Source: Pseudomonadota bacterium (GTDB lineage Bacteria > Pseudomonadota > Alphaproteobacteria > Reyranellales > Reyranellaceae). Taken from it: 8,378 nt of DNA. The stretch spans positions 1 through 8,378 of the forward strand of contig JAEZHS010000557.1 of the NCBI GenBank assembly GCA_023436825.1. Reading direction: 5' to 3'. The notes beneath the pieces are model-generated. The model was not told where the DNA came from. It made no database searches and worked only from the letters and a program-made list of their open reading frames with translations. The stretch's first letter is position 1. Every line of letters starts with the position of its first letter. Positions 117-8,378 of this stretch are shown here, in pieces. A program made the translations under genes and the position numbers.

Positions 117-908
117 TTACCCGACCGGCGGGACGTCCAGCCTGACCACAACCCCCTCGAGCGCCTTCGACGGCGCCGGATAGCGCTTCATCACCAGCGG
201 ATCGTGGCCCGGGATGATGTGCTGCGGCGACGCCGCCAGTGACCGCAGCTTGTCGTAGCCCTCGATCGTGTCGCCGACATGGAAGGTCGTCGGGAAGGCG
301 CGGCCGGTCTCCATGTGCTCGTAGTAGTGGCTGCAGTCGGAGGCCAGCACCAGCCAGCCGCGTTCGGTGGCCACGCGCACGCACTGCAGGCCCATCGTAT
401 GCCCGCCGATGTGATGCACGCTGATCCCGGGCGCCAGCTCGGCCGAACCGGCATGGAAGCGCACGCGAGCGCCGAACACCAGCCGCACCATGCCGACGAC
501 GTCCTCGACCTCGTAGCCGTGGTTGAACCGGCCGTGGCGCATGTAGCGGCCGGTGGCGAAGTTCATTTCCAGGTCCTGCAGATGGAACTCGGCCGCGGGA
601 AAGTCGAAGAACGTGCCGACATGGTCGTAGTGCATGTGGGTGATGACGACGTCCTTCACCGCCTTGGCATTGACGCCCATCAGCGCCAGCCCTTCGGTCG
701 GGGTGCGCAGGAAAGTGCGCTTGCGCTTCTTCGCCATCGCCTCGGTGAAGCCGGTATCGACCACGACGGTGCGGTTGGCGTTGCGCACCAGCCACACGAA
801 ATAGTCCATCGGCATGGGCGCATCGTGCGGATCGCCGCCGATGAAATGCGAGGCGCGCATGGCATCGCGCGTGGCGTATCGGATGGCGAAGACTTCGTAG
901 GTTTCCAT
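117..908 (-). CDS. MBL-fold metallohydrolase, N-acyl-homoserine-lactonase-like family
   Basis: A 263-residue cytoplasmic metallo-beta-lactamase-fold hydrolase with no signal peptide or membrane segment. The dinuclear-metal motif HMHYDH is at residues 91-96 (H91, H93, D95, H96). Further ligands are expected at H170 (GGHTMG), D191 (ASDCSH) and H235 (PGHDP), so the full HxHxDH-H-D-H set is present and the enzyme should be active. DTG at 51-53 is the usual strand/turn of the fold. Length and layout fit the AiiA/AttM-type lactonase group, but that group also contains lactonases and esterases for other substrates, so quorum quenching is only a possibility. The frame stays open upstream to 1052, but that start would run into the divergent binding-protein gene. 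The ATG at 908, giving METYEVFAIRY, matches the usual N-terminus of the family. Its Shine-Dalgarno is poor: GGGA lies only two bases from the ATG. It is divergent from the TTT binding-protein gene at 1012, which suggests the hydrolase may act on the ligand of that protein. Confidence 0.88.
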   Translation of the reverse strand: METYEVFAIRYATRDAMRASHFIGGDPHDAPMPMDYFVWLVRNANRTVVVDTGFTEAMAKKRKRTFLRTPTEGLALMGVNAKAVKDVVITHMHYDHVGTFFDFPAAEFHLQDLEMNFATGRYMRHGRFNHGYEVEDVVGMVRLVFGARVRFHAGSAELAPGISVHHIGGHTMGLQCVRVATERGWLVLASDCSHYYEHMETGRAFPTTFHVGDTIEGYDKLRSLAASPQHIIPGHDPLVMKRYPAPSKALEGVVVRLDVPPVG

Positions 909-1011
909 GATCCCGATGCCAATTCTTGCTTGAAACCCAGTCTTCCGGCGGACATCGTCGGCAACAAGCAAAAACGCCGCGCAAGACCGCGGACCGATGG
1001 GAGGAACGACA
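909..1011. promoter_or_regulatory. Divergent intergenic region between the hydrolase and the first TTT binding protein
   Basis: These 103 bp separate two genes read outwards, so promoters for both must lie here or inside the flanking genes. It is the most A/T-rich stretch nearby (for example aattcttgcttgaaa at 921-935 and aagcaaaaac at 966-975). A TTGAAA at 930-935 could be a plus-strand -35 box, but the base run 17 nt downstream (catcgt) is a poor -10. No convincing operator palindrome was seen. The regulatory role is inferred from gene orientation, not from a recognised motif. Confidence 0.45.
999..1005 (+). promoter_or_regulatory. Ribosome binding site deciding the start of the first TTT binding protein
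   Basis: GGGAGGA ends 6 nt before the ATG at 1012, a near-ideal Shine-Dalgarno. An in-frame ATG at 997 overlaps this element and would add only five residues before the positively charged start of the signal peptide, so 1012 is the better start. Confidence 0.75.
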
Positions 1012-1974
1012 ATGCTCACGCGACGCCGGGGCCTGTTGGGGTCCTTTGCCATGACGGCTGCCTGGCCGGCGGCCGGCCGGGCCCAAACGGCCTATCCCAG
1101 CAAGCCGATCCGCATTGTCCACGGCTACGGGCCGGGATCGAACCCCGACATCATCGCCCGCGTGATCTCGCCCAGCCTGACCAGCACGCTGGGCCAGAGC
1201 GTGATCGTCGAGCCCAAGCCCGGCGCCGGCGAGCGCATCGCGGCGCAGTACCTCACCACCCAGCCGCCCGACGGCTACACGCTCTATCTCATCACCGGCG
1301 GGGCCAACGTCATCAGCGCGACCGATCCACAGGTGACCTTCAGCACGCTGAATGACTTCTCCTACATTTCGACCATCACGCTGTTTCCCTTCGCGTTGTT
1401 CGTCGCGGCGAACGCGCCCTACAAGACGCTGAAGGATTTCATCGCCACGGCCCGCGAGCGGCCCGGCAAGCTCAACTACGGCCATGCCGGCACCGGCAAC
1501 ACGCTGCACCTCGCCGTCGAGCTCCTGAAGTCGCGCACCGGCATCCAGATCGAGCCGGTCGCCTACAAGGACCAAGCGCAGCTCATCAGCGACGTGATCG
1601 TGGGCCGCATCGAGGCCTCGATCAGCACCTTCACCAACTTCCACGGCGCGTTGAGCTCCGGCCAGGCGCGGGCGCTCTGCGTCACCTCGGAGGGGCGCTG
1701 GCCGCTCAATCGCGACGTCCGGTCGGTGGCCGAGGACGTGCCGGGCTACGAGGTCGTGTCGTGGCTGGGTCTTGCCGCGCCCGCCGGCCTGCCGGCCGAC
1801 ATCGCGAGCAGGCTTTCGGACGCGGTGAAGGTCGCCGTCGCCCTGCCCGAGCTGCAGGCCCGACTGCGCGACATGGGCAACGAGGCCCGCGCCAGCACGC
1901 CCGAGCAATTCCGGGCGCGCGTGGTCGCCGACTACGACAAATGGAAGCCGCTGGCGAAGATCGTGTATCCGTGA
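1012..1974 (+). CDS. TTT-family (Bug/TctC) periplasmic substrate-binding protein
   Basis: A 320-residue extracytoplasmic solute receptor for a tripartite tricarboxylate transporter. Residues 1-24 are a signal peptide: TRRRGLLG, a short hydrophobic stretch, then GRA before Q25. The TRRR-GLL start loosely resembles a Tat motif but lacks the usual Phe, so either Sec or Tat export is possible. The mature part starts YPSKPIRIV (28-36), followed by the first ligand loop GPGSNPDIIAR (40-50), then LGQSVIVEPKPGAGE (60-74) and PPDGYTLY (85-92), all typical of Bug proteins. It departs from the common form in two places: PGSNPD replaces PGGxxD, and PGAGE replaces PGAGG. Both lie in the loops that hold the carboxylate ligand, so the ligand may differ from that of the second binding protein in this window. 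No TctA or TctB membrane subunits are present here. The ligand cannot be deduced. It is divergent from the hydrolase gene and converges on putA with a 16-nt gap. Confidence 0.9.
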   Translation: MLTRRRGLLGSFAMTAAWPAAGRAQTAYPSKPIRIVHGYGPGSNPDIIARVISPSLTSTLGQSVIVEPKPGAGERIAAQYLTTQPPDGYTLYLITGGANVISATDPQVTFSTLNDFSYISTITLFPFALFVAANAPYKTLKDFIATARERPGKLNYGHAGTGNTLHLAVELLKSRTGIQIEPVAYKDQAQLISDVIVGRIEASISTFTNFHGALSSGQARALCVTSEGRWPLNRDVRSVAEDVPGYEVVSWLGLAAPAGLPADIASRLSDAVKVAVALPELQARLRDMGNEARASTPEQFRARVVADYDKWKPLAKIVYP

Positions 1975-1990: not shown

Positions 1991-4900
1991 CTACCCGATC
2001 GTCATCAGGCTGGCGTTGCCGCCGGCCGCCGCCGTGTTGACGCTGAGCGAGACTTCGTTGCCCAGGAATTCCAGCGGATAGGGCTCGACATAGACCGGCA
2101 CGATCGGCCCGTCGCGCGCGGCCAGGCGTTGGTTCAGCGCTAAAAGCTCGTCGGCGGTGCCGGCGAACAGCGCCGCGGCGATGCGAGCATCGGCCGGATC
2201 TTCCGTCACCTGGTTGCCGCTCGCCTTCACGAGATCGACCTGCACCGCCTTCTTCGCCGAGTCATGGGCGACGCAGAGGATCGTGCCCTTGGGCCGGTGG
2301 CCGTAGCTGTTGCGTTCGCCGACCGGTCCTACCAGTTCGCCGCCCGGCGGCGTGAGCAGAGGACGTTCCGCCAGCAGGCGATGGACATAGAGCGGCCCGC
2401 CCGCCTTGGGGCCGGTGCCCGACAGGCCATGGCCGCCGAACGGCTGCACGCCGACCACGGCGCCGATCATGTTGCGATTGACGTACTGGTTGCCGGCGGC
2501 ACTGGCCGCCGTGGCGCGCTCGATCGTCTCGTCGATGCGGCTGTGTACGCCGAAGGTCAGGCCGAAGCCGGTGGCGTTCACCGCCCGGACCACCGCCTCC
2601 ATGCCCTCGCGCCGGTAGCGCAGCACGTGCAGCACCGGCCCGAACACCTCGCCCGGCAGGTCGGCGACCGAATCGATCTCGATCAGCGTCGGCGGCACGA
2701 AGGTGCCCTGCTGCGTCTCTCCCGGCAGCGCCACCTGGTGCACGGCGTGACCCGCCGCGCGCATGCGCTCGATATGCGCGTCGAGGCCCTTCTGCGCGCC
2801 AGCCGAGATCACCGGCCCGACATCGACCGAGAGCCGATCGGGATTGCCGAGGCCGAGCTCGGCCATCGCCCCCTTGAGCATGGGCACGACCCGGTCGGCG
2901 ATGTCGTCCTGCAGGCAGAGCACGCGCAAGGCCGAGCAGCGCTGGCCCGCCGAATCGAAAGCCGAGGTCAGCGCATCGAGCACGAGCTGCTCGGGCAAGG
3001 CCGACGAATCGGCGACCATCGCATTCTGCCCACCGGTCTCGGCGATCAGCACCGGTGGCCGGCCGTCGCCATTGAGCCGACGGGCAAGCTCGCGGTTGAT
3101 CGACTGCGCCACCTCGGTCGAACCGGTGAACACCACGCCGGCGACCGTCGGATTGGCGACCAGGCGGGCGCCGACCTTGCCGTCGCCGGGCAGCAGCTGC
3201 AGCGCCGTGCGCGGCACGCCTGCCTCGTGCAGCAGCGCCACGGCAAGCGAGGCGATCAGCGGCGTCTCCTCGGCCGGCTTGGCGATGACGGCATTTCCCG
3301 CCGCCAGCGCGCCCGCAATCTGGCCGGTGAAGATCGACAAGGGGAAGTTCCAAGGGCTGATGCAGGCGACCGCGCCCAGCGGCTTGTGCGTGTCGTTGGA
3401 AAAACCTTCGATGCAGTCCGCGTAGTAGCGCAGGAAGTCGACGGCCTCCCTCACCTCGCCCACGGCATTGCCGAAAGTCTTGCCGGCCTCGCGCACGATT
3501 GGCCCCAGCAGCGGTTCCAGCCGCGCCTCCATCAGGTCAGCGGCCTGCCGCAGGATCGCCGCACGCGCCGCGGGCGCCTCCTGCCACGGCCTTGCCTGCT
3601 GGCAGGCCGCGTCGACCAGTTCGGGCGTGGCCTCGACGACCGTGCCGACGACGTCGCGGCGATCGGCCGGATTTGCGATCGGCTGCGCCTCGCCGCTTCG
3701 TGGACCGTCGGCCAGCACCGGCACCGCGGCGATCGGCTGTCCTTCCTGCAAAATCTGCGCGAGCCCCGCCAGTACCTGCTCGTTGGCGAGATCGAGTCCC
3801 TGAGAGTTCTTGCGGGTGGCGCCGAAAAGGTCGCGCGGCAGCCTTATGCGTGGATGCGGCGCACCCACGGGCTGCAGCGCCAGCGCCCGCTCCACCGGGT
3901 CGCCGAGAAGCGTGTCGAGCGTCACCTCCGGATTGGCGATCTGGTTGACGAACGAGGTGTTGGCGCCGTTCTCCAGCAGGCGGCGCACAAGATAGGCCAG
4001 CAGCGTCTCGTGCGTGCCTACCGGGGCATAGATGCGGCACGGCCGGTTCAGCCTGTCGCGCCCGACGACCTCCTCGTACAGCGGCTCGCCCATGCCGTGC
4101 AGGCATTGAAACTCGTACTGGCCGGCATAAAAATTCCCGCCGGCCATGACGTGGATGGTAGCGAGCGTCAGCGCATTGTGCGTGGCGAACTGCGGAAACG
4201 CCGCATCGGGCGCGGCCAGCAACCGGCGCGCGCAGGCGAGGTACGACACGTCGGTGTGGATGCGCCGTGTGAACACCGGGTAGTCCGAAAGGCCATCGAG
4301 CTGGGCGCGCTTGATCTCGCCGTCCCAGTAGGCGCCCTTGACCAGCCGCACCATCAGCCGGCGGTGCGAGCGGCGCGCCAGGTCGATCAACCAGTCGATC
4401 GTGAACACCGCACGCTTCTGATAGGCCTGCACGACGAAGCCGATGCCGTTCCAGCCTTCGAGCTCGGGCTCGAAGCAAAGCCGCTCCAGCAGGTCGAGTG
4501 AGATCTCCAGCCGGTCGGCCTCCTCGGCATCGATGTTCAATCCGATGTCGTAGTGGCGCGCGAGCACCGCCAGCTCCTTCAGTCGCGGATAGAGCTCGCC
4601 CCGCACACGCTCGATCTGTGCGCGGCTGTAGCGCGGATGAAGCGCCGACAGCTTGATCGAGATGCCGGGCCCTTCGTAGATGCCCCGTCCCCGGGCGCCG
4701 CGGCCGATGGCATGGATCGCCCGTCGGTAGGCCTGCATGTAGGCGAAAGCCTGTTGGGCCGTTACCGCCGCCTCGCCCAGCATGTCGTAGGAGTGGCGGA
4801 AGCCTTCGGCCTCGCGATCGCGGCCGTTGTCGAGCGCCTCCTCGATGGTCTGGCCGGCGACGAACTGCTCGCCCATCAGGCGCATGGCGATGTTCACGCC

Positions 4901-5407
4901 CGTGCGGATCAGCGGCTCGCCGCCGCGTCCGATCAGGCGGACCAGCGCCGCCGACAGGCCCTGCTCGCTGCTGGTCGCCGTCAGCCGCCCGGTCAGCAGC
5001 AGGCCCCAGGTCGCGGCGTTCACGAACAGAGACGGGCTGTGGCCGAGATGGGCACGCCAGTCGCCGCCGCCTATCTTGTCGCGGATCAGAGCATCGCGCG
5101 TGTCGTCATCGGGGATGCGCAGCAGCGCCTCGGCCAGGCACATCAGCGCCACGCCCTCCTGGCTCGATAGAGCGTATTCGTGGATCAGCCCTTCGACGCC
5201 TCCTGATGGAGTCTTTTTCCTGAGCGCTTCGACCAGCCGCACCGCCAGAGCGCGCGCCCGCTGGGTGCGCGCCGGCGCGAGCTTCGCCTGCTCGATCAGC
5301 GGCGGCAGGCATTCGGGCTCGGGGCGACGCCACGCTGCGGTGATGGCCGCCCGCAGCGGGGTTTGCGGCTGGATCGATTGTGCAAAAGCGTGAAAAGGAC
5401 CGGACAT
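1991..5407 (-). CDS. putA: Bifunctional proline dehydrogenase / L-glutamate-gamma-semialdehyde dehydrogenase PutA
   Basis: An 1138-residue enzyme that oxidises proline to glutamate in two FAD- and NAD-dependent steps, passing the intermediate through an internal tunnel. From the N-terminus: an alpha-helical arm (about 1-130); a proline dehydrogenase barrel (about 170-490) with GISIKLSALHPRYS (248-261), NIDAEEADRLE (291-301), RLVKGAYWDGEIKRAQ (354-369), FATHNALT (407-414) and YLVRRLLENGANTSF (472-486), whose R475-R476 pair binds the proline carboxylate; an aldehyde dehydrogenase domain (about 540-1010) with SPWNFPL (684-690), FTGSTEVA (760-767), general-base E790 and nucleophile C824 (GQRCSA); and a C-terminal domain ending in SVNTAAAGGNASLMTIG, the conserved motif of longer PutAs. 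There is no N-terminal ribbon-helix-helix domain, so it should not repress its own gene as E. coli PutA does. In other alphaproteobacteria such PutAs are controlled by an Lrp-type PutR, which is absent here. The ATG at 5407 (MSGPFHAF) is chosen because GAGG lies 9 nt upstream; in-frame ATGs at 5434 and 5515 are alternatives, and 5515 would overlap the divergent gene. Confidence 0.96.
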   Translation of the reverse strand: MSGPFHAFAQSIQPQTPLRAAITAAWRRPEPECLPPLIEQAKLAPARTQRARALAVRLVEALRKKTPSGGVEGLIHEYALSSQEGVALMCLAEALLRIPDDDTRDALIRDKIGGGDWRAHLGHSPSLFVNAATWGLLLTGRLTATSSEQGLSAALVRLIGRGGEPLIRTGVNIAMRLMGEQFVAGQTIEEALDNGRDREAEGFRHSYDMLGEAAVTAQQAFAYMQAYRRAIHAIGRGARGRGIYEGPGISIKLSALHPRYSRAQIERVRGELYPRLKELAVLARHYDIGLNIDAEEADRLEISLDLLERLCFEPELEGWNGIGFVVQAYQKRAVFTIDWLIDLARRSHRRLMVRLVKGAYWDGEIKRAQLDGLSDYPVFTRRIHTDVSYLACARRLLAAPDAAFPQFATHNALTLATIHVMAGGNFYAGQYEFQCLHGMGEPLYEEVVGRDRLNRPCRIYAPVGTHETLLAYLVRRLLENGANTSFVNQIANPEVTLDTLLGDPVERALALQPVGAPHPRIRLPRDLFGATRKNSQGLDLANEQVLAGLAQILQEGQPIAAVPVLADGPRSGEAQPIANPADRRDVVGTVVEATPELVDAACQQARPWQEAPAARAAILRQAADLMEARLEPLLGPIVREAGKTFGNAVGEVREAVDFLRYYADCIEGFSNDTHKPLGAVACISPWNFPLSIFTGQIAGALAAGNAVIAKPAEETPLIASLAVALLHEAGVPRTALQLLPGDGKVGARLVANPTVAGVVFTGSTEVAQSINRELARRLNGDGRPPVLIAETGGQNAMVADSSALPEQLVLDALTSAFDSAGQRCSALRVLCLQDDIADRVVPMLKGAMAELGLGNPDRLSVDVGPVISAGAQKGLDAHIERMRAAGHAVHQVALPGETQQGTFVPPTLIEIDSVADLPGEVFGPVLHVLRYRREGMEAVVRAVNATGFGLTFGVHSRIDETIERATAASAAGNQYVNRNMIGAVVGVQPFGGHGLSGTGPKAGGPLYVHRLLAERPLLTPPGGELVGPVGERNSYGHRPKGTILCVAHDSAKKAVQVDLVKASGNQVTEDPADARIAAALFAGTADELLALNQRLAARDGPIVPVYVEPYPLEFLGNEVSLSVNTAAAGGNASLMTIG

Positions 5408-5484
5408 GTCGTTGATCCTCAGATGAGGTAACATGACCTGAAAGACAAGCACCCCCATTGGATCGCTTAGGGAGGGTGACGCCG
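5408..5484. promoter_or_regulatory. Divergent spacer between putA and the tphC-like gene, with a short inverted repeat
   Basis: These 77 bp lie between two genes read outwards and must hold regulation for both, or share it. The inverted repeat CCTCA-GA-TGAGG at 5417-5428 overlaps the putA Shine-Dalgarno (GAGG on the minus strand, 5420-5417). It could be a short operator or a small hairpin hiding the putA ribosome-binding site. On the plus strand, AGGGAGGG at 5469-5476 sits 8 nt before the ATG at 5485 and fixes that start in preference to the in-frame ATG at 5458. No clear sigma-70 promoter and no recognised PutR or IclR (TphR-type) operator was seen. Confidence 0.45.
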
Positions 5485-6444
5485 ATGACGCTTCTGTCGC
5501 GTGCCGCCGCCGCACTGTTGCTGATGGCCGCGTCCGCGTTTGCCCAGAGCTACCCCAACAAGCAGGTGCGCATCGTCGTGCCCTTCCCGGCCGGCGGCTC
5601 GGCCGACATCCTGTGCCGCCTGGTCGGCGAGAGGCTCTCGGCGGGCTGGGGACAGACGGTGATCATCGACAATCGCGCCGGCGCGGGCGGCAACGTCGGC
5701 GCCGAGATCGTCTATCGCGCCGAGCCTGAGGGCTACACCTTGCTGTGCAGCCCGCCGGGCCCGCTCTCCATCAACCACAACCTCTACAAGACGCTGCCCT
5801 ACGACTGGACAAAGTTCGTGCCGGTCGGCGTTCTGGCGCTGGTGCCGAACGTCATCACGGCGCGCGCCGACCTGCCGGCCAACTCGCTTCAGGAGTTCAT
5901 CGCCTATGCCAAGGCCAACCCCGGCAAGGCGACCTACGCCTCGCAGGGCAGCGGCTCGACCTCGCACCTGTCGGCCAGCAACCTTGCGACCCTGGCCGGC
6001 ATCGAGCTGGTGCACGTGCCTTATAAAGGCGAGGGCCCGGCCCTGGTCGACATCAGCGCCGGCCGGGTCGACATCTTCATCGGCAACATCTCGGCGTCGT
6101 TGCGCTTCGAGAAGCAGAAGCAGGTGAAATTCCTGGGGCTGGCCAGCCGCACCCGCAGCCCCGTGGCGCCCGACGTGCCGACCACGGCCGAGCTCGGCCT
6201 GCCAGGCCTGGTGGCAAGCGCCTGGTTCGCCCTGGTGGCGCCGCCTGGGACGCCGGACGCCATTGCACATAAGGTAAGTGCCGACATGGCCGCAGCCCTG
6301 AAGCTGCCCGAGCTGCGGGCGCGGTTCCTGGAGCTCGGCGCCGAGCCGCAAGGTCGCACCCTGGCCGAGACCGCCGCCTTCATCAAGGACGAGGAAGCGC
6401 GCTGGCGCAGCGTCATCAAGTCGGCCAATGTAACGCTGGAGTGA
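5485..6444 (+). CDS. TTT-family substrate-binding protein, probable aromatic dicarboxylate (TphC-like) receptor
   Basis: A 319-residue periplasmic receptor of the Bug/TctC family. Residues 1-20 are a clean Sec signal peptide (one Arg, an Ala/Leu core, ASAFA before Q21). The mature protein begins SYPNKQVRIVVPFPAGGSADI (22-42), followed by the second ligand loop DNRAGAGGNVGAEI (62-75), PEGYTLL (81-87), HVPYKGEGPALVDISAGRVD (177-196) and APPGTPDAI (252-260); these are family hallmarks, with the standard PAGGSAD and GAGG loops that hold carboxylates. Its stop codon is 12 nt before the oxygenase alpha gene, so the two are surely co-transcribed. In Comamonas terephthalate operons the gene immediately before tphA2 is tphC, a TTT binding protein that delivers terephthalate to the TpiA-TpiB permease. 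This position makes terephthalate or a similar aromatic dicarboxylate the favoured ligand, but sequence alone does not fix Bug-family ligands. No permease genes are in the window, so it would have to use subunits encoded elsewhere. Confidence 0.9.
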   Translation: MTLLSRAAAALLLMAASAFAQSYPNKQVRIVVPFPAGGSADILCRLVGERLSAGWGQTVIIDNRAGAGGNVGAEIVYRAEPEGYTLLCSPPGPLSINHNLYKTLPYDWTKFVPVGVLALVPNVITARADLPANSLQEFIAYAKANPGKATYASQGSGSTSHLSASNLATLAGIELVHVPYKGEGPALVDISAGRVDIFIGNISASLRFEKQKQVKFLGLASRTRSPVAPDVPTTAELGLPGLVASAWFALVAPPGTPDAIAHKVSADMAAALKLPELRARFLELGAEPQGRTLAETAAFIKDEEARWRSVIKSANVTLE

Positions 6445-6445
6445 C

Positions 6446-6451
6446 AGGAGG
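6446..6451 (+). promoter_or_regulatory. Strong ribosome binding site of the oxygenase alpha gene
   Basis: A perfect AGGAGG ends 5 nt before the ATG at 6457 and begins just 2 nt after the previous stop codon. This tight spacing points to coupled expression of the binding protein and the oxygenase. Confidence 0.75.
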
Positions 6452-6456
6452 TTCGC

Positions 6457-7740
6457 ATGGACGTCCGACACGACGAAGGACTGAAAGAGCCGGTCTCGAC
6501 CGGCATCTGGCCGGAGGAGTCCCTGGCCCGCGTGCCCTACTGGGTCTACCAGGACGAGGCCAACTACAGACGCGAGATGGAGCGCCTGTTCGAAGCCGCC
6601 ACCTGGAACTTCGTCTGCCTGGAAGCGGACATCCCCAACAAGGGCGACTATCGCACCAATCATGTCGGCATCATGCCGGTGATCGCGGTGCGTGCGGCGG
6701 ACGGCGGAATCAACTGCTTCGAGAACCGTTGCTCGCATCGCGGCGCGCTGATCGCCTTCGACGACGGCGGCAACGTCGGCAACCAGTTCCGCTGCGTCTA
6801 TCACTCGTGGAGCTACGACCTCGCCGGCAACCTGCGCGGCATCGCCTTCGAGCGCGGCATCAACGGCCCTGATGGCATACCAAGGGGCGGCATGCCCAAG
6901 GATTTTTGCCGCGACGATTTCAGCCCGAGGAAGCTGCGCACCACGACGTTGGCGGGTCTGGTGTTCGCCACGCTGTCGCCCGACACGCCACCGATCGAGG
7001 AATACATCGGCGCCGAGGTGCTGGGCCGCCTGAAGCGCGTGCTCAACCGGCCGATCCGGGTGATGGGCCGCTTCGTGCAGCCGCTGCCCAACAACTGGAA
7101 GCTCTATGTCGAGAACGTGAAGGACACCTATCACGCCTCGATCCTGCACACCTTCCTCACGACCTTCCGCATCTCGCGCCTGACCCAGGGCGGCGGCGTG
7201 CTGGTCAGCCCCGACGGCGGCAACCATGCGAGCTACACCATCGCCATCCCCGAGGGCGCCAACGCCAATGCCTACAAGGAGCAGCAGATCCGCTCCGACC
7301 AGGACGGCCGCTTCGCGCTCGCCGATCCCAGCGTGCTCGATTCGGTCGAGGAGTTCGGCGATCACATCCAATTGCAGATCCTGTCGGTGTTCCCGGGCTT
7401 CATCCTGCAGCAGATCCACAATTGCCTGGCCGTGCGCCATGTCGTGCCGCGCGGCGTGGGCAGGATGGACCTGGTGTGGACCTACTTCGGCTTCGAAGAC
7501 GACACGCCCGAGATGAACCGGCGGCGGCTGAAGCAGCAGAACCTGGTCGGCCCGGCCGGCTTCATCTCCATGGAGGACGGCTGCGTCGGCGGCTTCGTGC
7601 AGCGCGGCACCGCCGCGGCGGCCGACGAGGTGTCGGTGATCGAGATGGGCGGCAGCACCGCCGAAAGCCAGGCCACCCGCGCCACCGAAGCCTCGGTGCG
7701 CGGCTTCTGGAAGGCCTATAGGCGGCATATGGGTTACTAG
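6457..7740 (+). CDS. tphA2: Rieske aromatic-ring-hydroxylating dioxygenase alpha subunit, terephthalate 1,2-dioxygenase (TphA2)-like
   Basis: A 427-residue catalytic oxygenase subunit. The Rieske [2Fe-2S] site is C92-x-H94 (RCSHRG) and C113-x2-H116 (CVYHSW). The mononuclear iron site is in ENVKDTYHASILH (219-231): D223 is the inter-subunit electron bridge and H226 and H231 are ligands, with D374 (SMEDG) as third ligand. All required residues are present. Blocks such as PNNWKLYVENVKD, LQILSVFPGF, GPAGFISMEDG and SVRGFWKAYR match my memory of Comamonas TphA2 (413 residues) better than salicylate 5-hydroxylase NagG, which has a different C-terminus. The TphA2 residues I recall as holding terephthalate (S243, R309, R390) correspond to S259, R327 and R408 here. 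The expected reaction is O2- and NADH-dependent cis-dihydroxylation of terephthalate to 1,2-dihydroxy-3,5-cyclohexadiene-1,4-dicarboxylate, with electrons from a separate reductase (TphA1) not in this window. The family (Rieske alpha) is certain; the substrate is inferred. A related para-substituted benzoate remains possible. Confidence 0.93.
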   Translation: MDVRHDEGLKEPVSTGIWPEESLARVPYWVYQDEANYRREMERLFEAATWNFVCLEADIPNKGDYRTNHVGIMPVIAVRAADGGINCFENRCSHRGALIAFDDGGNVGNQFRCVYHSWSYDLAGNLRGIAFERGINGPDGIPRGGMPKDFCRDDFSPRKLRTTTLAGLVFATLSPDTPPIEEYIGAEVLGRLKRVLNRPIRVMGRFVQPLPNNWKLYVENVKDTYHASILHTFLTTFRISRLTQGGGVLVSPDGGNHASYTIAIPEGANANAYKEQQIRSDQDGRFALADPSVLDSVEEFGDHIQLQILSVFPGFILQQIHNCLAVRHVVPRGVGRMDLVWTYFGFEDDTPEMNRRRLKQQNLVGPAGFISMEDGCVGGFVQRGTAAAADEVSVIEMGGSTAESQATRATEASVRGFWKAYRRHMGY

Positions 7741-7748
7741 AATCACTG

Positions 7749-7876
7749 CCTCCTCAGCGAAGCTGGGGAGGTGGCGCCGTCATACGGCGACGGAGGGGTC
7801 ATGGGCATCAGCACTGTTGCTCATGACCCCTCCGTCCGCTTCGCGGACACCTCCCCATCGTCTAACGATGGGGAGG
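7749..7876. repeat. Nested palindromic intergenic repeat between the two oxygenase subunit genes
   Basis: A 128-bp element made of two inverted half-units. The centre is a perfect 15-bp inverted repeat, GACGGAGGGGTCATG (7789-7803) / CATGACCCCTCCGTC (7822-7836), with inner AGCA/TGCT (7810-7813 / 7818-7821). Around it are four small hairpins, each with a 3-nt loop: 7749-7771 (10 bp, one G-T pair), 7776-7788 (5 bp, perfect), 7834-7848 (6 bp, perfect; its first three bases are shared with the central repeat) and 7850-7876 (12 bp, perfect). GGGGAGGTG at 7765-7773 in the left half matches CACCTCCCC at 7848-7856 in the right. The arms can fold either as one long stem or as a clover of hairpins. This resembles BIME/REP-type or non-autonomous mobile repeats of high-GC proteobacteria. 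It carries no gene; the reading frame running through it from 7771 is only an upstream extension of the beta-subunit frame. Confidence 0.85.
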
Positions 7877-7878
7877 AA

Positions 7879-7884
7879 GGGAGG
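7879..7884 (+). promoter_or_regulatory. Ribosome binding site of the oxygenase beta gene, abutting a hairpin
   Basis: GGGAGG ends 3 nt before the ATG at 7888, slightly close. A second GGAGG at 7872-7876, 11 nt from the ATG, is the 3' arm of the 12-bp hairpin 7850-7876 and would be hidden when that hairpin forms. The site fixes 7888 as start and rules out the upstream in-frame ATG at 7771, which lies in the repeat. Confidence 0.7.
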
Positions 7885-7887
7885 AAA

Positions 7888-8352
7888 ATGGACATCGCCC
7901 GCCTCGTCGAACTCAACGCCATCTACGCGCGCGTCATCGACAACGAGCAGTTCGAGGAATGGCCAAAACTGTTCCACGATCCCTGCCTCTACAAGCTGAC
8001 GACGGCAGAGAACGTGGCACGCGGCCTGGAGGGCGGGCTCATCTACGCCGATACGCGCGGCATGCTGGAGGACCGCGTCGCCTCCCTGCGCAAGGTCAAC
8101 ATCTACGAGCGCCAGCGCTATCGCCATATCGTCGGCTTGCCCGTGGTGCTGGGCCGGCAGAACGGCGCGGCCGAGGTCGAGACGCCGTTCCTGATCGTGC
8201 GCATCATGCGCGAAGGCGACATGGACGTGTTCGCCACCGGCTGCTACCGCGACAAGGTCAAGCCCGACGCCTCGGGCGCCCTGCGCTTTGCCGAGCGCGT
8301 GGTGATCTGCGACGGCCGCCGCTTCGACACGCTGGTCGCGCTTCCGTTCTGA
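7888..8352 (+). CDS. tphA3: Aromatic-ring-hydroxylating dioxygenase beta subunit, terephthalate 1,2-dioxygenase (TphA3)-like
   Basis: A 154-residue small subunit of a Rieske dioxygenase, with the cone-shaped SnoaL/NTF2-like fold. It carries no metal site and supports the alpha-beta hexamer. Landmarks are NAIYARVIDN (10-19), EEWPKLF (23-29), GLIYADTRGMLEDRVASLR (50-68), the signature NIYERQRYRHIVGLP (71-85), TPFLIVRIM (99-107), VFATGCYRDK (114-123) and the end FDTLVALPF. Comamonas TphA3, as I recall it, is also 154 residues, shares the NIYERxRYRHIxGLP block, and ends DTLMALPL. The start at 7888 follows a good Shine-Dalgarno and gives the family's usual N-terminus. It should assemble with the alpha subunit encoded at 6457-7740. 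The 147-nt gap between two genes whose products must be made in fixed ratio is unusual and is filled by the palindromic repeat. The beta-subunit family is firm; terephthalate specificity rests on resemblance and context. Confidence 0.92.
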   Translation: MDIARLVELNAIYARVIDNEQFEEWPKLFHDPCLYKLTTAENVARGLEGGLIYADTRGMLEDRVASLRKVNIYERQRYRHIVGLPVVLGRQNGAAEVETPFLIVRIMREGDMDVFATGCYRDKVKPDASGALRFAERVVICDGRRFDTLVALPF

Positions 8353-8378
8353 CCATGCCCTTGCTGGGGGCCACTGGA

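Follow-up and report, generated by a model that had tools for sequence, protein, structure and literature searches.

The 8,378-nucleotide stretch analysed here (the window; contig JAEZHS010000557.1 of assembly GCA_023436825.1, a pseudomonadotal genome placed in the Reyranellaceae) ends in three genes that encode a TphC-like periplasmic solute-binding protein and the alpha and beta subunits of a Rieske oxygenase of the terephthalate 1,2-dioxygenase (TPADO) type. The probable reading is that a relative of Reyranella carries here a cassette of TPADO type, in which uptake by the TphC-like protein and dioxygenation by the alpha-beta oxygenase would be followed by conversion of the product to protocatechuate without TphB. 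The type of enzyme, its pocket residues, the failure to find an orthologue of tphB or tphA1 in close relatives and the presence of PcaH in them are read from sequence. The first-pass annotation had called the region a probable terephthalate operon; the TPADO-type cassette, the complete TphC signature and four of the five pocket residues bear this out, but the proposed continuation into tphB-tphA1 finds no support.

The open reading frames (ORFs) and Pfam agree with the binding protein, Rieske alpha and beta genes of one direction named in that annotation (E values of 4.9e-68 for TctC, 5.3e-15 for Rieske, 3.7e-12 for Ring_hydroxyl_A and 6.7e-13 for Ring_hydroxyl_B), and terephthalate proteins are the closest solved relatives of all three genes. 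For the alpha subunit the best solved chains are 7q04 (TPADO; E 2e-154) and 7vju (E 1.3e-153), and the next-best match is the salicylate 5-hydroxylase 7c8z (E 2.4e-92). The identity to 7q04, TphA2 of Comamonas E6, is 55.9% over 401 aligned positions. A Rieske motif, C-x-H-x18-C-x2-H, lies at residues 92-116, and His226, His231 and Asp374 are aligned with the iron ligands. Passages of PMC9060491 give R309, S243, I290, N224 and R390 as the substrate contacts of TPADO; of the five characterised members compared in that paper, only TPADO has N224, S243 and R390. Four of the five contacts are kept in the window: R327 for R309, which holds the first carboxylate, S259 and R408 for S243 and R390, which hold the second, and I308 for I290. 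In an alignment that joins alpha from 92 loci with that of the window and with two reference chains, R309 and R390 are kept in all terephthalate-type rows that reach these positions (L038 and L042 end short), while S243 is replaced by Thr in L021 and L066, and I290 by Met in L028, L030 and L032. All five remaining rows, namely AndAc of Novosphingobium KA1, an AndAc-like, an AhdA1c-like and an OhbB-like row and NagG, keep R309 and lack both S243 and R390; the names AhdA1c-like and OhbB-like are our own labels.

A first alpha tree of 92 rows was obtained by a quick search, with L038, L042 and L052 left out. The 87 terephthalate-type rows form one clade against the five others, with a support of 99 in the Shimodaira-Hasegawa-like approximate likelihood ratio test (SH-aLRT), at a point where the program warns that long branches meet. 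Within it the earliest branches are three rows with Val and several with Asn at position 224 (TPADO numbering), after which a 71-row clade (SH-aLRT 99) opens into an unresolved fork of two Asn224 groups and a Thr/Ser224 clade. Comamonas E6 and Rhodococcus RHA1 sit in one of the two Asn224 groups. The window falls in the Thr/Ser224 clade (40 rows, SH-aLRT 96), a branch of its own beside the E6/RHA1 group, and the Thr/Ser rows group again in a more careful tree of 52 rows (100/97). Judged from the branching order, Asn224 looks ancestral, with Thr and then Ser derived. Position 224 is Thr or Ser across the window's clade, mostly Thr in the wider clade, and Asp in L021. The likeness to TPADO claimed earlier is thus borne out in so far as the enzyme groups with TPADO and apart from AndAc and NagG; by sequence it appears to lie beside, not inside, the characterised TPADO group, with Ser in place of N224.

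Members of the Thr/Ser224 clade are the Reyranella kin, two Rokubacteria loci, a locus from a betaproteobacterial metagenome-assembled genome (MAG; L036) and a Variovorax plasmid locus (L083). The genes tphC-A2-A3-B-A1 stand in this order in L036. Positions 3963-9376 of L083 (Variovorax WDL1 plasmid, Thr224) hold, in this order, genes for a reductase, alpha, beta, a PdxA-like protein, a hydrolase and a VOC protein; this oxygenase may serve another substrate. The Rokubacteria MAG loci L034 and L035 have terephthalate-type alpha and beta genes but no tphB in the 1.8 and 9.5 kb, respectively, that follow beta. L021, from the same MAG as L009, is a diverged paralogue: an additional alpha that has Asp224 and Thr243 and no adjoining beta hit.

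The beta subunit matches 7vju_B (E 2.6e-42) and 7q04_A (E 6.1e-42) and has the same length as these chains, 154 residues, as the first-pass annotation had noted for TphA3. The best solved matches of the second TctC receptor of the window are the terephthalate-binding protein 8hka (E 1.4e-103) and 7ndr (E 1.4e-93), both ahead of the other TctC structures listed; 7ndr is listed as a TTT (tripartite tricarboxylate transporter) substrate-binding protein, which we take to be Comamonas TphC. The residues at TphC positions 30, 86, 150, 155, 156, 178 and 242 are F-P-Q-T-S-G-A. The TphC signature given in part of PMC8556258 (P86, Q150, T155, and T242 or A242) is therefore complete, as P86/Q150/T155/A242, and the first TctC receptor of the window has T-A-T-S at the same sites. 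A242 is reported, in the same part of that paper, for a small subset of published tph-like operons. We surveyed 75 genomes of the family of Reyranella soli, counting alpha at E <=1e-100, and found it in 44, partial in G026, G030, G042 and G044. In a scoring of 29 candidates in each genome, out of as many as 159, a TphC-like gene was found in 23 of the 44 alpha-bearing genomes and in 1 of the 31 alpha-less genomes (Fisher 3e-6).

The nearest kin of the window are Reyranella relatives, in agreement with the alphaproteobacterial origin suggested earlier; the groundwater MAG locus L001 is 95.6% identical to it over 6385 bases and 95.9% over 1869. The three tph-type genes of the window are found likewise in L001, L002 and L005. 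The first-pass annotation expected tphB and tphA1 to follow beta, and this expectation fails in the kin: neither gene adjoins beta in L001-L003, L005-L007, L010 and L011 (at least 1200 bases readable) or in L008 (1037 bases). What lies to the right of beta in L001, L002, L003, L005, L006 and L007 is a DUF900 hydrolase gene and beyond it, as far as the contigs allow, convergent genes for a flavin monooxygenase, a thiamine pyrophosphate (TPP) enzyme and another TctC. A canonical tph operon was accordingly rejected, given the lack of tphB and tphA1 in close relatives. One shared replacement gene 3' of beta was also considered and rejected, the place being taken by a DUF900 hydrolase, a VOC-like protein (by eye), a flavin monooxygenase or a TPP enzyme depending on the locus. 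All eight terephthalate-type plasmid loci (L081-L085 and L090-L092, in a sample of 12 of 944 matching plasmid records) carry a PdxA-type and a reductase gene, the latter in front in L083. The view that the lack of tphB is special to the R. soli family is weakened by how often terephthalate-type loci elsewhere lack it too: among Asn224 loci that can be read for 1200 bases or more past beta, 19 of 38 have no tphB beside beta. In L045 the better alpha copy is tphB-less and a second copy has tphB and tphA1. L044 and L057 (both Asn224) share a 323-residue gene family at the usual place of tphB, amidohydrolase-like by eye.

In genome-wide searches, a TphB query from L017 found matches of 77-100% identity in 5 of 18 alpha-locus genomes; the other 13, including the ten searched of the window's nearest kin (G001-G010), gave only PdxA-like matches of 35-39% or none. 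In the family survey TphB (at least 73% identity) was found in 23 of the 75 genomes, split over pieces in four, with two stop codons in one piece from G072. It was present in 22 of the 44 genomes with alpha vs 1 of the 31 without (Fisher 7e-6), and was not found in the other 22 alpha-bearing genomes, for which completeness figures were not given. Some of these absences may be gaps, because G016, G042, G043 and G064 also lack any PdxA-like match at 1e-30. Three tphB-less genomes have no 'MAG' in their titles: R. soli (L002), URHD0017 (L005) and SYSU D60007 (L033).

When the tphB state was mapped on the 52-row tree for 40 coded rows (the window, L016, L021, L034, L035, L083 and six outgroup rows being left uncoded), at least five changes were needed, four of them forced by well-supported branches. 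In L023 a stretch of 37 codons, the final ones of the 305 queried for tphB, survives 3' of beta, 86% identical (E 7e-17). L011 retains eleven codons near the tphB start (32 bases at 91%; blastn E 5e-8, tblastn E 0.1). In L193 (genome G034) a 29-base match to the tphB start (86%, E 0.001) gives way within nine bases to the sequence that lies directly past the matched tphB end in L017. No remnant was found in L001 or L002, and the best matches in the 4 kb past beta of L003 and L005-L008 have E >0.5. The remnants in three tphB-less loci imply that tphB was lost more than once. The remnant in L023 shows a loss rather than a failure to gain, those in L011 and L193 do so less strongly, and a loss on the window's own branch would follow from the tree. 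Neither alpha nor beta contains an internal stop in any of the 18 tphB-less loci checked. The ratios of nonsynonymous to synonymous substitution rates (dN/dS) in eight tphB-less pairs are 0.06-0.18 for alpha and 0.11-0.21 for beta, vs 0.08-0.21 and 0.09-0.37 in six tphB-bearing pairs, which indicates that both subunits remain under purifying selection despite the loss of tphB. A tie between the Asn224-to-Ser change and tphB loss was rejected, since L012, L150, L162 and L164 have Ser together with tphB; many Thr224 rows also have tphB, and Ser or Thr at this position does not track the tphB state.

With respect to the rest of the pathway, 17 of 18 genomes hold a match above the PcaH cut-off, the exception being G008, a genome of 4.3 Mb, so that use of protocatechuate is probable; a LigA-type domain passes its cut-off in 13 of the 18. 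The best TphA1 matches in the R. soli family are 33-37% identical, none reaching 1e-20 in G008 and G012, and the two that were scanned are BenC-like and under cut-off. We infer the substrate, the reductase, the membrane subunits and the way of meeting the TphB step as follows. In the periplasm the TphC-like protein would bind terephthalate or a ring-substituted derivative, in either case an aromatic acid with para carboxylates, and would serve TTT membrane subunits encoded elsewhere. A reductase encoded elsewhere would feed the alpha-beta Rieske oxygenase, which would dioxygenate ring carbons 1 and 2, and the product would pass to protocatechuate and into the PcaGH pathway, bypassing TphB.

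Several observations weigh against this route. N224, the remaining residue for the second carboxylate, is replaced by S240 in the window and mostly by Thr across the wider clade, so that the published TPADO motif is present only in part. The best NCBIfam models are AndAc (NF041684) and AndAd, at 420.6 of 750 and 130.5 of 230 bits, far below their cut-offs. A TphC-like gene was not found in 21 of the 44 alpha-bearing genomes, where misses are possible given the scoring depth. Neither tphB, tphA1 nor a regulator gene stands beside the cassette in close relatives, and it is in relatives that the absence of tphB and tphA1 was read, the window itself stopping 26 bases past the end of beta (at 8378). 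The 48-77 short-chain dehydrogenase/reductase (SDR)-type matches per genome make a non-homologous replacement of TphB conceivable. No assayed enzyme of the window's clade was found.

The loss of tphB fits a replacement dehydrogenase and substituted substrates alike, and both alternatives are sub-cases of the proposed TphB-free route. It is possible, on tentative grounds, that a non-homologous dehydrogenase encoded elsewhere (an SDR, a medium-chain dehydrogenase/reductase or housekeeping PdxA) oxidises terephthalate dihydrodiol, in which case only the gene set of the locus would differ from that of Comamonas. The pocket and the binding protein look made for terephthalate, the same pocket occurs in tphB-bearing sisters, and besides the abundant SDR-type matches, G050 and G008 hold BphB-like proteins that score 416 and 403 bits (cut-off 459.85). 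However, no single gene takes the place of tphB next to beta, and in none of 20 genomes did a protein exceed the cut-off of the BenD or the BphB/TodD model, the scoring having covered no more than 77 candidates in a genome, out of as many as 174. A BenD-like piece in G006 (293 bits, cut-off 322) is truncated by the end of its contig. The model used for BenD, NF009463, is listed as PRK12823.1 and is presumably the BenD model.

Rather unlikely, by comparison, is that the lineage uses 2-hydroxy- or 2-aminoterephthalate, the dioxygenation product re-aromatising spontaneously to protocatechuate and tphB thereby becoming dispensable. The chemistry is known for Comamonas TPADO, which according to a portion of PMC9060491 turns 2-hydroxyterephthalate (100% coupled) and likewise 2-aminoterephthalate (22% coupled) into protocatechuate with the reductase alone and without TphB, and TphC is reported in part of PMC8556258 to respond to both compounds. 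Repeated loss of tphB while alpha and beta stay constrained is also in line with such substrates, but the change at N224 does not track tphB loss, which argues against them, and a natural source of such acids is not shown. The broader proposal of a tphB-independent route, by which ring-2-substituted terephthalates or a similar natural para-dicarboxylate would reach protocatechuate in one enzymatic step so that tphB was deleted repeatedly, we regard as unlikely. That the tphB-less loci are decaying, functionless remnants is very improbable: tphB remnants are indeed present and a TphC-like gene was not found in 12 of the 22 tphB-less alpha genomes (yet nor was it in 9 of the 22 tphB-bearing ones), but alpha and beta are free of internal stops and their dN/dS values are as low as in tphB-bearing pairs. 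It is also very improbable that another aryl-carboxylate oxygenase, of anthranilate, salicylate or picolinate type, has been mistaken for TPADO, for although AndAc and AndAd are the top NCBIfam models, their scores fall far short, the window keeps the S243 and R390 equivalents absent from such enzymes, and the tree separates the two groups at the well-supported split that carries the long-branch warning.

The cassette can be set beside known systems. The Comamonas sp. E6 operon (tphR, then tphC-tphA2-tphA3-tphB-tphA1) shares with the window the order binding protein-alpha-beta, a beta of 154 residues, the alpha identity given above and four of five substrate residues; it differs in that close relatives of the window have no tphB, tphA1 or regulator beside the cassette, and in that the window has Ser for N224 and a 147-base spacer holding a palindrome between alpha and beta. 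Plasmid pRHL2 of Rhodococcus jostii RHA1 (L081), whose operon we take to be the one named tpa, has an alpha 56% identical with the same residues at 243, 290, 309 and 390, but with Asn at 224; its locus also carries a PdxA-type gene and genes for a reductase, an MFS transporter and an IclR regulator, and the 11.2 kb covered include no TctC. The tphB-bearing loci of the R. soli family, such as L014 (Enhydrobacter aerosaccus ATCC 27094), L017, L020 and L029, are closer (alpha 75-78%, partly shared context) but have Thr224 and a tphB-like gene, 50-53% identical to plasmid TphBs, after beta. The anthranilate 1,2-dioxygenase AndAc/AndAd of Novosphingobium KA1 (L086) belongs to the same Rieske subfamily, with R309 and the iron ligands; its AndAc is only 44% identical and has F/I/L at 224/243/390, and a ferredoxin gene, andAb, and a gene for an FAD-dependent oxidoreductase follow.

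The spacer between alpha and beta contains a palindrome at 7789-7836 with 23-base arms, 91% complementary, and 2 bases between them. Counted from the end of the alpha match to the beginning of the beta match, spacer lengths are 47-156 bases in L001-L007 vs 3-21 in L008-L033 (L021 having no beta hit). A stretch in the L005 spacer resembles the palindrome at 76%, matched in reverse, as palindromes allow. When the window is compared with its nearest kin (L001, L002, L005 and L008), dN/dS is 0.06-0.17 in alpha and 0.06-0.18 in beta; with the more distant L010 and L023, alpha gives 0.26 and 0.38, beta 0.19 and 0.31, and the receptor up to 0.44. By the low values against kin, alpha and beta are constrained genes.

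Table 1. Features of the window (strand +, - or none).
Feature	Position	Strand	Basis or remark
Metallo-beta-lactamase-fold protein	117-1052	-	
First TctC receptor	997-1974	+	
PutA	1991-5515 (ORF)	-	Probable ATG at 5407; start inferred
Short divergent gap between putA and the tphC-like gene	5408-5484		ORF list; putA start inferred
Second TctC receptor, TphC-like periplasmic solute-binding protein	5485-6444	+	PF03401; best solved match 8hka
TphA2-like Rieske oxygenase alpha, TPADO-type, 427 aa	6457-7740	+	Pocket S259, I308, R327, R408; S240 at N224 equivalent
Alpha-beta spacer, 147 bases	7741-7887		Palindrome inside
TphA3-like oxygenase beta, 154 aa from ATG	7888-8352	+	7vju_B and 7q04_A matches

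The ORF of the TphC-like receptor spans 5458-6444, and an ATG exactly at the listed start opens a stretch resembling a signal peptide by eye; the mechanical ORF of beta begins earlier than its ATG, with a GTG at 7771. No regulator gene appears in the ORF list within the gap next to putA, and scans for promoters and terminators gave signals no higher than in shuffled sequences. An antisense frame of 759 residues (5467-7746, minus strand) lies opposite the tphC-like and alpha genes; it looks spurious, because its GC contents by codon position (0.90, 0.47, 0.64) are unlike those of the real genes here. The metallo-beta-lactamase-fold protein shows a weak likeness to quorum-quenching lactonases (53.6 bits, cut-off 360), and its ORF overlaps the start of the divergent first receptor ORF, which lacks the TphC signature. 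Positions 9-75 recur elsewhere in L001 (14732-14788, 91%) and L005 (5464-5531, 90%) and are probably a dispersed intergenic repeat.

The alphaproteobacterial setting, remarked on earlier, is not new: part of PMC8556258 already describes tph-like operons in Alphaproteobacteria, as well as TphC homologues outside tph operons. Among titles and abstract openings of part of the matching literature, no description was found of a lineage that has Ser or Thr at 224, lacks tphB and bears marks of its loss, and records on Reyranella and terephthalate, by title and abstract opening, gave nothing on tph genes. Metagenome counts that take tphA2A3 homologues as terephthalate degraders would, as a caution, include tphB-less loci. 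Reyranella soli NBRC 108950 (L002) is a named strain that carries the same gene set. A passage of PMC9060491 remarks that terephthalate in the environment is a xenobiotic and might not be what TPADO primarily acts on; an enzyme of TPADO type that stays under constraint in environmental bacteria after TphB has been lost repeatedly offers a handle on this question.

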